Source: Acidobacteriaceae bacterium
Lineage (GTDB): Bacteria; Acidobacteriota; Terriglobia; Terriglobales; Acidobacteriaceae
Assembly: GCA_003140075.1 (NCBI GenBank)
Contig: PLIO01000211.1
Location: 69,561-117,381, forward strand
DNA length: 47,821 nt
Direction of reading: 5' to 3'
Both the position numbers and the translations under genes were made by a program. Each line of letters opens with the position of its first letter. Position 1 is the stretch's first letter. Below are positions 10,623-30,962 of this stretch, in pieces. The notes beneath the pieces are model-generated. The model was not told where the DNA came from. It saw nothing but the letters and a program-made list of their open reading frames with translations, and searched no databases.

Positions 10623-10738
10623 TGACTTCGATCGGAGCGGAAAATATCGGTCGAGGTCGTGCGCTTAGCGCAGTATTTTCAATCGGTTGAAAGGATTGCG
10701 CAGGTTGCGATCAGGGTATGGAGACTTTGGGCACCAAG

Positions 10739-10767
10739 GCTTTTTACCACTTGCAGTAATTTGCAAG
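10739..10767 (+). promoter_or_regulatory. Candidate operator, copy 1 (CTTGCA-N6-TGCAAG)
   Basis: A perfect inverted repeat CTTGCA-GTAATT-TGCAAG lies at 10750-10767, preceded by GCTTTTTACCA. Nearly the same string, GCTTTTTGACCA followed by CTTGCA-GGATTA-TGCAGG, occurs at 29903-29932 upstream of the EPS export block. A dyad of this size suits a dimeric helix-turn-helix protein. The Fis-type protein encoded at 11666 is a candidate binder, by inference only. Confidence 0.55.
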
Positions 10768-10958
10768 CTTCCGTAGGCTGTTCCTAACTTCGGTGCGGTT
10801 TGTCTCCGGGGAAACCTGGAATGTGCGCTCCGATTTCGTGGGTCGCTTTGTACTGTATCTCCCCCCAAATTAACAGGTAACGGCAGCGAGTCGCTTTCCT
10901 TCAGCCTTTCGAGGGCAGCGTAGGGAGCCGCATTTGGAGTGCATTACAAATTCTTCCC

Positions 10959-11006
10959 GGTCACGGAGTGTGACTGAGAGGGCGGAGCCGCGACCGACAA
11001 GCTCCG
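10959..11006 (+). promoter_or_regulatory. Conserved leader element with hairpin, copy 1
   Basis: Over 32 columns (10959-10990) this matches 30100-30131 at 28 positions and contains the fully identical 20-mer TGTGACTGAGAGGGCGGAGC (10969-10988). The 3' end of the 20-mer, CGGAGC (10983-10988), can pair with GCTCCG (11001-11006) across a 12-nt loop. In the second copy the partner sequence and loop differ but pairing is kept. Position inside the leader of a NusG-paralog gene suggests an ops-like or LoaP-type loading site; this is inference. Confidence 0.6.
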
Positions 11007-11026
11007 GTTCCGAGGGCTCGGGGCAT

Positions 11027-11542
11027 ATGACGGATCAGGGAACGTCGGCGATGCGCTGGTATGCGGTTCAAACCCGTTCCCGCCACGAGAAGATGGTAGT
11101 CCGGCAGCTGGAGGGCCAGGGATTCGCAACCTTTCTCCCGGTCACGACTCAGTTGCGACAATGGAGCGACCGCCGCAAGCTGGTGGAACTTCCTTTGTTC
11201 TCCGGCTACGTTTTTCTGCGAATGGTCTACCAGCCCGAACCACGGCTGCGCGTTCTTACTGCCGAAGGAATCGTCGGCTTCGTGGGGGTTCACGGCCAGG
11301 GAATGCCGATTCCCGATCGGCAGATCGAGCACATACAGACTCTGTTGGCGGCTAAGGTGCCGGTTGAAAGTTACCCCTTTCTCAAGATTGGGCAGCGCGT
11401 GAGGATTCGTAGCGGCTCGCTGAACGGGACCGAGGGCATTCTGGTGGGGCAGGAAAACGACCGCATGCTGGTCATCTCGGTAGAACTCATTCAGCGCTCC
11501 GTTTCCATGCGGTTGCAAGGCTACGAAGTGGAACCGATCTAG
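11027..11542 (+). CDS. NusG-family specialised transcription antiterminator (UpxY/RfaH/LoaP-like)
   Basis: This 171-residue protein has an NGN domain from about residue 10 (RWYAVQTRSRHEKMVVRQLEGQGFATFLPVT, then ELPLFSGYVFLRM and VGFVGVHGQGMPIP) and a KOW domain at 121-148 (IGQRVRIRSGSLNGTEGILV). Such paralogs bind elongating RNA polymerase at specific leader sites and suppress termination in long operons for capsule, EPS or antibiotics. Being first in a block of long NRPS and EPS genes fits that job. I chose ATG 11027; ATG 11051 (MRWYAVQT) is possible, and the upstream TTG at 10934 would put the conserved leader element inside the coding region. Likely targets are the two leaders described here. 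Confidence 0.9.
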   Translation: MTDQGTSAMRWYAVQTRSRHEKMVVRQLEGQGFATFLPVTTQLRQWSDRRKLVELPLFSGYVFLRMVYQPEPRLRVLTAEGIVGFVGVHGQGMPIPDRQIEHIQTLLAAKVPVESYPFLKIGQRVRIRSGSLNGTEGILVGQENDRMLVISVELIQRSVSMRLQGYEVEPI

Positions 11543-11665
11543 TGCGGGTTTTGAGATGTGGCAAGACACTCTCCCAGAGAGTGGGTTGCAAGATTAGATT
11601 TCTCTCCCGGTTGCAAAAATTCCTTAACGAGATCTTCTGGCAGAACAGAGGGCGCGAGGTCAGCT

Positions 11666-11983
11666 ATGAATGAAGCACAGTTGAAGGAGACGATCGAAAT
11701 GGAAGATCAAACACAGCCAGCTAAGCAAGCGGCTTCTGATGGGTCGGCTACTCTGGCGCAGCCGAATGGGACGCCGGCTCCATGGGCCGCTCTGCGACAC
11801 CTGCGAGCCGAAACGGAGATCCACGCCATCAGTAGGGCTCTCGAAGAATCACGCTGGAACCGCAAGCATGCGGCGAAGTTGCTGAGCATCAGCTATCGTG
11901 GATTGCTCTACAAAATTCGCCAGTACAATATCACCCCGGCCTCGCGGAATAATCTGGCGTCGGCGCCACGGCCGGAGGTTTAA
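11666..11983 (+). CDS. Small Fis-type helix-turn-helix DNA-binding protein
   Basis: This 105-residue protein has an unstructured N-terminal half rich in Gln, Ala, Pro and Thr and a C-terminal Fis/HTH_8 domain (residues 52-88: EIHAISRALEESRWNRKHAAKLL, SISYRGLLYKIRQYNI). The same fold ends sigma-54 activators, but here no AAA+ or receiver domain is attached, so it is an orphan DNA-binding module. I chose ATG 11666 with GAGGT just upstream; the longer frame from 11558 lacks a ribosome site. The gap before it contains two GGTTGCAA copies (start positions 25 bp apart, near 11584 and 11609) and an inverted repeat CACTCTC-CCA-GAGAGTG (11567-11583). It probably regulates this locus. Confidence 0.8.
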   Translation: MNEAQLKETIEMEDQTQPAKQAASDGSATLAQPNGTPAPWAALRHLRAETEIHAISRALEESRWNRKHAAKLLSISYRGLLYKIRQYNITPASRNNLASAPRPEV

Positions 11984-29716: not shown

Positions 29717-29902
29717 CTCGCGCAGTTTGTGGGCCCCCGACCGCAACTAGATAAGCCCTGCACGCTTGTTTTCGTGCTTTCAGAGGTTCAAATCGGATAC
29801 CTGCTGCGGCGGCAGCGAATTCCAGGATTTGTACGAGCCTGTAAGTATTTATGAATCAATAGATTACATGGATTTGTGCAAGTAGGAGTCTTTCTTCTCT
29901 AA

Positions 29903-29932
29903 GCTTTTTGACCACTTGCAGGATTATGCAGG
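29903..29932 (+). promoter_or_regulatory. Candidate operator, copy 2
   Basis: GCTTTTTGACCA followed by CTTGCA-GGATTA-TGCAGG mirrors the perfect dyad upstream of the NusG-like gene (10739-10767), with one mismatch in the right arm. An extra CTTGCA at 29943-29948 and a TGCAAG at 29876-29881 may be further half-sites. The dyad is about 80 bases before the C-run, compared with about 100 in copy 1, consistent with an upstream activator site. Confidence 0.5.
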
Positions 29933-30099
29933 CGCAGATATTCTTGCAGCAATTGGGGCGGTCTTTATGGTCACCCCTTCGCTGAGACGCTGTAGAAGTA
30001 ACCCCCCAACAAATCAAGCACTACCACGAGTTACGCGAACTCTTTTGACCGTCTTTTTTGATTTCCGTGGGACGGTTGTTCCAGGCTCTTGTGACCCAA

Positions 30100-30146
30100 G
30101 GTCGCTGAATGTGACTGAGAGGGCGGAGCTGTAGCTCGAGCTCTGC
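30100..30146 (+). promoter_or_regulatory. Conserved leader element with hairpin, copy 2
   Basis: It contains the identical 20-mer TGTGACTGAGAGGGCGGAGC at 30110-30129. Its 3' end forms an 8-bp stem: GCGGAGCT (30123-30130) with AGCTCTGC (30139-30146), one G-U pair, loop GTAGCTCG. Copy 1 pairs the same conserved arm with a differently placed partner, so the pairing is kept while sequence and loop differ. Confidence 0.6.
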
Positions 30147-30245: not shown

Positions 30246-30962
30246 ATGAAGACGTTCGTCGGTTTTGTGTTGGGATTTTTTTTGCTGACAGCGGCATTGC
30301 TGTCGGCGCAGCAAGGGACCGCGGAGCCTGTCGCCAAATTGGCGAGCTCGGACGCAACCCCCGACACCGCGTCACAACCCAGCGCTCCACAACTGCAGCA
30401 GCGCGATTCGCGCTATCACCTGGCGGCGGGCGATACCTTCGACGTTTCCTTTGAACTGAGCCCTGAATTTAATCAGTCCGTGGTCGTGCAGCCGGATGGA
30501 TACGTAACGCTCAAGGCTGTGGGAGACGTGAAAGTAACGGGCCAGACGGTTCCGGAGTTGACCCAAACTCTGCGCACAGCTTACGGAAAAATGTTGAACG
30601 ATCCTTTGATCGTGGTCGCTCTCAAGGACTTTGAGAAGCCGTATTTCGTCGCCGACGGTCAGGTTGCCCATCCCGGCAAGTACGACATGCGGGGCGCAGT
30701 TACGTTAACCCAGGCAGTTGCGATCGCGGGTGGTTTCACCGACGCCGCCAAGCACTCGCAAGTGCTCTTGTTCCGCCGCGTCAACGACCAGTGGCTTTCG
30801 GCAAAGATTTTCAACATCAAGGACATGGAAAAGCGGCGCGACCTGCATGAGGATCCCACCCTTCATCCCGGGGATATGGTGATCGTGCCCAAGAACGCGC
30901 TTTCCAAGATCAAGCCCTTTATTCCCAATTCCGGGCTGGGAGCGTACAGGCAGATCGACTAA
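30246..30962 (+). CDS. Wza-like polysaccharide export protein (Poly_export + SLBB)
   Basis: This 238-residue protein has a signal peptide (MKTFVGFVLGFFLLTAALLSAQQ). A polysaccharide-export domain follows (about 58-140: YHLAAGDTFDVSFELSPEFNQSVVVQPDGYVTLKAVGDVKVTGQTVPELTQTL) and then an SLBB-type soluble-ligand domain (about 145-225: YFVADGQVAHPGKYDMRGAVTLTQAVAIAGGF...LHPGDMVIVP). It would form or gate the outer-membrane or periplasmic channel for EPS. No lipobox cysteine is seen, so it may be periplasmic rather than a lipoprotein like E. coli Wza. The start is ATG 30246, 9 bases after GGAGG. It is first in the EPS export block behind the conserved leader. Confidence 0.9.
   Translation: MKTFVGFVLGFFLLTAALLSAQQGTAEPVAKLASSDATPDTASQPSAPQLQQRDSRYHLAAGDTFDVSFELSPEFNQSVVVQPDGYVTLKAVGDVKVTGQTVPELTQTLRTAYGKMLNDPLIVVALKDFEKPYFVADGQVAHPGKYDMRGAVTLTQAVAIAGGFTDAAKHSQVLLFRRVNDQWLSAKIFNIKDMEKRRDLHEDPTLHPGDMVIVPKNALSKIKPFIPNSGLGAYRQID

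Follow-up and report, generated by a model that had tools for sequence, protein, structure and literature searches.

A conserved ops-like element before UpxY genes and polysaccharide operons of Acidobacteria, a candidate loading site for NusG paralogs

The Two Leaders of the Window

The window, that is, the whole stretch of 47,821 nucleotides analysed here from an Acidobacteriaceae bacterium (GenBank assembly GCA_003140075.1, contig PLIO01000211.1), contains two leaders that share a 20-mer, TGTGACTGAGAGGGCGGAGC, identical and in the same orientation in both (Table 1). Searched at up to three mismatches, the 20-mer gives these two matches in the window and none in 100 shuffles; the larger block reported in the initial annotation is also found, with 28 of 32 columns identical by eye count between 10959–10990 and 30100–30131. 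The gene behind the first copy, described there as a NusG paralog, is indeed one: its product reaches 119.2 bits against the UpxY family model NF033644, whose cut-off is 100, and remains below the cut-offs of the RfaH model TIGR01955 (75 of 144.5 bits) and of the LoaP model (51.9 of 125 bits). Its predicted structure, with a mean pLDDT of 93.6, consists of an NGN and a beta KOW domain; its structural matches are NusG and RfaH entries, among them 8pen, RfaH in the ops-paused complex (target TM 0.84, 99 columns). The Bacteroides systems pair upxY with upxZ, and the next gene in the window encodes a Fis-type HTH protein. The gene run behind copy 1 goes from 11 to 29.7 kb and, if it is a single operon, would be long enough to need antitermination. 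Behind copy 2, the export gene is followed by Wzz, an XrtA/PEP-CTERM ATPase-like protein (247.6 bits where the cut-off is 324.5), and then a sugar transferase.

Table 1. Features of the two leaders and the genes behind them, in window positions
Feature	Positions	Strand	Remarks
Upstream promoter-like sequence, copy 1	10721..10755	+	GAGACTTT, 19-nt gap, CACTTGCA; putative promoter
C6 tract, copy 1	10861..10866	+	
Upstream hairpin, copy 1	10959..10975	+	GGTCAC (10959-10964) / GTGACT (10970-10975); covariation in 23 sequences
Conserved 20-mer, copy 1	10969..10988	+	Exact match
ops-like 12-mer, copy 1	10981..10992	+	GGCGGAGCCGCG; GC-GGA-GC (10982-10988), YRYR end; frame compared with ops12 of PMC5995543
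upxY gene, NusG paralog	11027..11542	+	NGN + KOW; NF033644, 119.2 bits
Fis-type HTH protein, gene after upxY	11663..11983	+	PF02954 HTH_8
Upstream promoter-like sequence, copy 2	29886..29920	+	GAGTCTTT, 19-nt gap, CACTTGCA
C6 tract, copy 2	30002..30007	+	
Upstream hairpin, copy 2	30100..30116	+	GGTCGC (30100-30105) / GTGACT (30111-30116), one G-U pair
Conserved 20-mer, copy 2 (trans copy, EPS block)	30110..30129	+	Exact match
ops-like 12-mer, copy 2	30122..30133	+	GGCGGAGCTGTA
Polysaccharide export protein (Poly_export/SLBB), first gene behind copy 2	30246..30962	+	

Further upstream, the sequence C[AT]CTTGC occurs in 10 of 23 leaders, against 3 for its reverse complement, 1 for the reversed pattern and a shuffled mean of 0.58, and is perhaps a shared promoter or operator. 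In the leaders of several other copies, too, AC-C[AT]CTTGCA is preceded at about 19 nt by GAGACTTT or GAGTCTTT, and it is at times trailed by CTGCAA and, 17 nt on, by TANNCT. A scan of the plus strand of both leaders for the sigma-70 consensus found none, and a sigma-54 promoter, considered for TTGCA-N-TTGCA, is not claimed since its spacing departs by one base from the consensus. Between element and gene, neither leader has an intrinsic terminator; terminator-like matches number three in the region of copy 1 (one lies within upxY and the other two precede the leader; shuffled sequence gives 1.3) and zero in that of copy 2.

In the initial annotation, both blocks were placed exactly 108 bases after a C tract. 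The spacing is exact in the window, from tracts starting at 10861 and 30002, but it is not general: tracts of C6 or longer start 102–123 nt before the motif in all five copies of the genome, and in relatives the distance varies or the tract is absent. Upstream of cis elements, runs of at least five C were counted in 4, 18, 9 and 6 of 117 over four distance bins, and runs of at least five G in 1, 0, 0 and 1. A role in Rho loading or slippage is possible.

The Element in the Genome and in the Family

In its own genome (5.77 Mb in 276 contigs) the 20-mer has, at up to three mismatches, five copies, each in the sense direction of its gene, and the reversed pattern has none. Outside the window, one copy (C95:54089) precedes a second upxY, whose ATG stands immediately behind the element, and two head genes that do not belong to the EPS core, namely a GDSL-lipase gene (C210:7292; clustered, by eye, with a carbamoyltransferase-like gene) and the gene of a large NHL-repeat protein (C210:14043). 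Very large proteins, one of them with NHL repeats, are clustered behind the trans copy in this region (L006 and L008, C210:1-38000). A broader pattern has four exact matches in the genome, one of which precedes a further upxY (C95:143721), and four matches with one mismatch (all the exact matches and two of these four are explained; C149:11727 and C219:7787 are one-mismatch matches). At up to two mismatches its 33 and 22 matches are at the chance level given by the controls (27 and 24).

Among 150 genomes of the GTDB family to which the window belongs, 70 contain the 20-mer at up to three mismatches, some of them by chance. The alignment of 23 chosen copies reads GGGTCAC-N-GTGACTC, followed by AGAGGGCGAAGC and YRYR. 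From these a covariance model, R1, was built; the copies had been selected by pattern, which makes their own scores uninformative, and nearness to UpxY was no selection criterion. R1 gives 89 hits at E ≤0.01 in 57 of the 150 genomes. Of these hits, 65 precede a listed UpxY gene by 56–321 nt and share its strand, the list being that of the 150 best-scoring matches across the 150 genomes. Conversely, 64 of the 150 listed genes have an R1 hit upstream; 56 of the 57 genomes with hits hold a listed UpxY, and the remaining one (G137) holds one that scores below those listed.

The DNA of 149 of the 150 listed UpxY genes was read, and 147 have at least 150 nt of upstream sequence. Within 200 nt upstream, GGCGRAGC is found in 118 of these 147, against 1 for its reverse complement, 2 for the reversed pattern, a shuffled mean of 1.4 and about 4.5 predicted from the background density, and GCGNAGC in 124 (controls 6, 8 and 9.8). 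By itself, the loose GNNA pattern GCGNNAGC shows no enrichment (18 of 147, vs. 13, 14 and 9.8 in the controls). The 23 genes with no GCGRAGC in 350 nt were inspected by eye: six have GNNA loops in the frame of the element (GGCGATAGCCTG twice, GGCGGCAGCCTG, GGCGACAGCCTG and AGCGGTAGCTATG twice), the loop is AGA or AAA in a further five, one (L137) has AC-GAA-GT, in which the outer stem pair is swapped, a single compensating change in the stem, and 11 have nothing clear. By a classification rule, 12 of the 147 genes are without an element. In one genome, tandem copies 136 nt apart precede a single upxY (L016, G070:C10:105799 and 105935).

In a set of 80 named loci, which partly overlaps the family genomes, GCGNAGC is present within 350 nt in 48 of the 79 that have enough upstream DNA, the controls giving 6 and 15. 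The Nitrospirae and NC10 loci shown from this set mostly lack it. On one contig filed under Betaproteobacteria (BOG), a upxY 57% identical to the query has GTGACTCAGTATGGCGGAGCCCTG upstream (L265), which would point to transfer or misbinning.

Copies Away From upxY

There are 24 R1 hits away from a listed UpxY, of which three are those of the genome itself, one stands at a contig end (G082:C44) and 20 were read. By eye, UpxY is the first gene at two of these (L073 and L074) and lies slightly further on at a third (L077). In the other 17, where the first gene or a chosen early one was scanned, 10 have a polysaccharide gene of the SLBB/Poly_export (seven: L071, L072, L076, L081, L084, L085 and L087), Wzz/GNVR (L075 and L088) or flippase (L070) type. 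The rest comprise a Fis-HTH protein (L069), sigma-54 regulators (L078 and L083), an NRPS 2.3 kb away (L082, the gene scanned, nearer ORFs being left out), a GFO/IDH protein (L080), a formyl transferase (L086) and a locus whose second ORF, the one scanned, has no match (L079). Regulators of the Fis-type HTH or sigma-54 kind stand directly behind the element or beside upxY at 11663–11983 of the window and at L069, L078, L083 and L363.

In the phylum at large, the search with GTRASTSASNNGGCGRAGCYRYR at up to one mismatch gave 57 matches, spread over 42 of the 297 genomes and several families, and the reversed control gave 26 matches in 22 genomes, so that many single hits in the phylum must be due to chance. 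UpxY (E ≤1e-20) is present in 79 of the 297 genomes and is concentrated in those that bear the element, 32 of 42 vs. 47 of 255 others (p 3e-13, with related genomes counted apart); exact matches of the element fall in 18 genomes, 16 of which have UpxY. Genomes positive for the control have UpxY in 9 of 22 cases, which is not significant. The search returned 30 loci, 25 of which were inspected, the five copies already known from the family being excluded. At only two of the 25 (L335 and L336) is UpxY within 1.5 kb; there the element lies just 3′ of upxY, ahead of the next gene, an arrangement also given by the coordinates in G162 and G313. Thus, outside the family of the window, the element is mostly away from upxY, before EPS genes. 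Nine of the 25 loci were scanned, and the genes found encode Poly_export (L357), glycosyltransferases (L355 and L359), Wzz/GNVR (L360), a sugar transferase (L335), FemAB/GNAT proteins whose called ORFs overlap the element (L358 and L362), an ABC exporter (L361) and a sigma-54 regulator (L363). Several other loci resemble chance hits.

The Upstream Hairpin and Its Flanks

The arms directly upstream of the ops-like 12-mer form a hairpin with covariation. In the alignment of 23 copies, 85% of the cells pair, compared with 14–41% when the arms are slid by one to three columns, and four of the seven pairs have changes on both sides. The upstream RNA hairpin is common but not universal: over 135 elements, a stem score of at least 5 is reached in 76%, vs. 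57% with swapped upstream DNA and 47% in shuffled sequence, and the 5′ arm of type I, when searched for strictly, is present in 18 of 69.

The initial annotation had proposed another hairpin, in which the conserved 3′ arm pairs with a different downstream partner in each leader. Such pairing, by GGCGGAGC, can be drawn for each window copy, with stem scores of 6 and 6.5, but over the 135 related elements it is at chance level and is therefore a trait of the two window sequences, not a conserved feature. Of the checks proposed there, recurrence before UpxY and polysaccharide genes and co-occurrence with UpxY were found, while the downstream pairing is not conserved in the further copies.

Two types of flank can be distinguished, TGTGACTCAG (type I) and TGTAAGTGAG (type II). 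In type II, the 3′ arm GTGAG is matched upstream by CTCAC in 16 elements and GTGAC by GTCAC in 8; one element is discordant and in four the match is lacking (Fisher p 8e-6 when these four are excluded). When the type II label, which applies to 41 rows, is mapped on a quick tree of 147 UpxY domains, it requires 15 changes, vs. 35.9 when shuffled, with none of 500 shuffles as low. This agreement between flank type and UpxY clade at cis sites could be explained by joint inheritance and is consistent with a UpxY site, not decisive. The genome of the window has three other upxY genes with different versions of the element, a type II element (L089, C95:143170), AGCGGTAGCTATG (L090, C48:93125) and a weak flank with GGCGAAGC (L091, C1:61872), as expected if the paralogs have separate targets.

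The 12-mer and the ops Element

The conserved end of the element can be read as a 12-mer, GGCG-R-AGC-YRYR. After GGCGRAGC, 119 cis elements have Y in 100%, R in 85%, Y in 97% and R in 95%, with all four together in 97; position 12 is G in 67%, and A in copy 2 of the window. An ATG occupies positions 10–12 in 48 of the 119, and the 71 elements without it keep Y11 in 68 and R12 in 65 cases; a YRYR end that is kept without a start codon behaves as a pause signal would.

This frame is that of the ops element of Escherichia coli. According to the part of PMC5995543 consulted, ops12 is GGCGGTAGCGTG, with a loop from G4 to A7, a C3:G8 pair, a pause-inducing TG at positions 11–12 and the base T6 flipped into a pocket of RfaH. 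The acidobacterial element is equally long, also starts with GG and closes with a Y-R dinucleotide; by sequence, it has the consensus-pause end of ops (GG at 1–2, Y at 11 and G at 12), with R in place of the G at 12. Its loop likewise begins with G and ends with A, and it likewise stands in leaders of polysaccharide-type operons and has a NusG paralog as its partner. In most copies, however, the loop is GNA, one base shorter, giving a possible GC-GNA-GC where ops has GC-GGTA-GC. Unlike ops, the element is often preceded by an RNA hairpin, the upxY gene often lies inside the operon, and the partner is of the UpxY family and not RfaH. The window copies, GGCGGAGCCGCG and GGCGGAGCTGTA, are no close variants of GGCGGTAGCGTG, while some relatives reach 10–11 of 12 positions: GGCGGTAGCATG (L319) and GGCGGTAGCTTG (L315), both before UpxY genes, are identical to ops in 11 of 12, and GGCGATAGCCTG, before other UpxY genes, in 10 of 12. 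A few relatives among Acidobacteria and Methylomirabilota have GGCGGTAGC or GGCGAAAGC; two Methylomirabilota loci have GGCGGTAGCTTA and GGCGAAAGCCTG, and one Nitrospirae locus has GTAAGTGAAAGGGCGAAGCTATA. The earlier remark that the motif was not recognised from any described family therefore needs qualification. Rfam indeed has no match, either in the window at the gathering threshold (the only level covering the leader of copy 2) or at E ≤1 for 10700–11060, but the frame, the possible mini-hairpin and the pause end are those of the ops element of RfaH.

GNA and GNNA loops closed by two G-C pairs give DNA mini-hairpins of exceptional stability, and GCGAAGC melts at 78°C, as stated in the portions seen of PMC4686876 and PMC10527192. 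The sequence permits a GC-GNA-GC mini-hairpin in 124 of the 147 upstream regions. With the DNA parameters of ViennaRNA, three triloop 12-mers that were tried stay unfolded (MFE 0), and only the two GNNA ones fold.

On the protein side, the residues with which RfaH contacts ops are mostly absent from 181 UpxY rows, with H20 in 12, R23 in 17, R73 in 2 and K10 in 7 (R in 114); the only contact positions that are frequent are T72 (70), G74 (159) and V75 (147). Furthermore, the KOW domain of the window protein is predicted as a beta barrel and not as the alpha hairpin of RfaH. In an alignment that includes 34 rows from the named-loci set, the association of protein columns with the loop base (A in 110, G in 42) is highest at the column of RfaH T72 and fourth at that of R73; a pair test that takes the tree into account leaves only 7 supported pairs for the loop base and the RfaH-72 column.

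Other NusG paralogs offer further points of comparison. The UpxY of Bacteroides fragilis is of the same family by NF033644, and its gene heads its polysaccharide operon; Acidobacteria differ in having trans copies. No UpxY loading element is given in the parts of PMC7819879 or PMC7593976 that were available, and UpxY has been observed bridging to the upstream DNA duplex, as cited in the part seen of PMC12691694. LoaP, with its dfn leader, is likewise a NusG paralog whose long operons are preceded by a structured element in the leader, but the hairpin loops of the 23 aligned copies are not of the UNCG type that LoaP recognises. In the open-licence literature, no paper linking acidobacteria and UpxY was found, and papers on UpxY, NusG paralogs and RfaH had, among the matches listed, no such element in their titles or in the beginnings of their abstracts.

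What the Element May Be

We regard it as probable that the element is an ops-like site of pausing and loading for NusG paralogs of the UpxY family, which would make it a distant counterpart of the RfaH/ops system of E. coli. The initial annotation had already suggested it as the loading site of the local paralog, and the recurrence of the element before UpxY genes and polysaccharide operons, its co-occurrence with UpxY in the phylum and the flanks that track UpxY clades all favour that proposal. The closest alternative is that the site is read as RNA, in that UpxY or another protein would bind the nascent hairpin outside the polymerase, in the manner of LoaP, with GC-GNA-GC as an RNA triloop. 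The covariation of the upstream hairpin speaks for such a reading, as does the leader hairpin bound by LoaP, an RNA hairpin of UNCG type in the available text of PMC12691694. However, a sizeable part of the copies have no such hairpin or a poor one, whereas GGCGRAGC and the pause end persist; the frame of the conserved end is that of ops, which some relatives match at 11 of 12 positions, and the window protein is far under the LoaP cut-off. On balance, we consider recognition as RNA unlikely. A conserved translation start, in which AGAGGG/GAGG would be a Shine-Dalgarno sequence and GCTATG would hold the start codon of upxY, is a good deal less probable. It would account for the ATG at positions 10–12, in frame with UpxY in 42 of the 48 cases, and for the Shine-Dalgarno-like string in 80 of the 119 cis elements, but not for the 71 elements that keep Y11 and R12 without ATG, nor for GCGRAGC, which a Shine-Dalgarno sequence does not need; moreover, the start codon is further downstream in both window copies and most trans copies lie 25–145 nt before the first called ORF.

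It could also be asked whether the element is a DNA site common to EPS promoters for a regulator acting at initiation, either the Fis-type HTH protein or a sigma-54 activator, given that genes of such regulators adjoin some elements and that a separate promoter-like motif is shared upstream. We hold this to be very improbable, even more so than the translation start: in both window leaders the element is about 200 nt downstream of that motif, it keeps one orientation to the gene, it stands at the start of upxY behind another gene in L018, L021 and L023, and its upstream arms covary as a hairpin. Least credible of all, to the point of being almost negligible, is a REP-like or mobile repeat dispersed over the genome and unrelated to UpxY; several copies per genome would fit it, but position and orientation contradict it, with five copies in 5.8 Mb, all in the sense direction of a gene, none for the reversed control, and fixed positions relative to UpxY.

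If the element is a pausing and loading site, transcription would start upstream of it and RNA polymerase would pause at it with Y11 as the RNA 3′ end and R12 as the next base, a position suggested by the conserved Y-R-Y-R end with GG 10–11 nt earlier. Within the bubble, the nontemplate strand would then fold into the GC-GNA-GC mini-hairpin, or GC-GNNA-GC in some clades, with the loop presented to the N-terminal domain of UpxY. The 3′ arm of the nascent RNA hairpin ends about 15 nt upstream of the pause position in type I and 13 nt in type II, and where this hairpin is present it may hold the paused polymerase complex from the side of the exit channel. UpxY would subsequently stay on the polymerase and carry it through the long operon, with copy 1 serving the autoregulation of the upxY operon and copy 2 and the other sites an action in trans on polysaccharide operons.

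Implications for UpxY and for Acidobacteria

A wider proposal, which we put forward tentatively and with rather more doubt than conviction, is that of a composite loading code throughout the phylum, in which a nascent-RNA pause hairpin would adjoin an ops-like mini-hairpin of the nontemplate DNA. Its loops (GAA, GGA, AGA and GNNA) and flanks (GACT and AAGT) would vary with the UpxY clade and let several paralogs of one cell load at their own operons. Were such a code real, RfaH with ops and UpxY with its elements would be branches of one old principle of recruitment by GNA/GNNA mini-hairpins, and the GNA mini-hairpin of DNA, treated in the literature seen as a matter of oligonucleotide chemistry, would gain a natural role in transcription. 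In a survey from 2020 (PMC7593976, in the part available), the RfaH of E. coli is the only RfaH-like protein whose recruitment is known in detail; a link of LoaP to an RNA hairpin has been added since (PMC12691694). For the UpxY family, the element described here provides a specific and testable candidate loading site, with many natural variants, targets in trans and a predicted regulon, in the Acidobacteria, a phylum of soil bacteria that has received little study.
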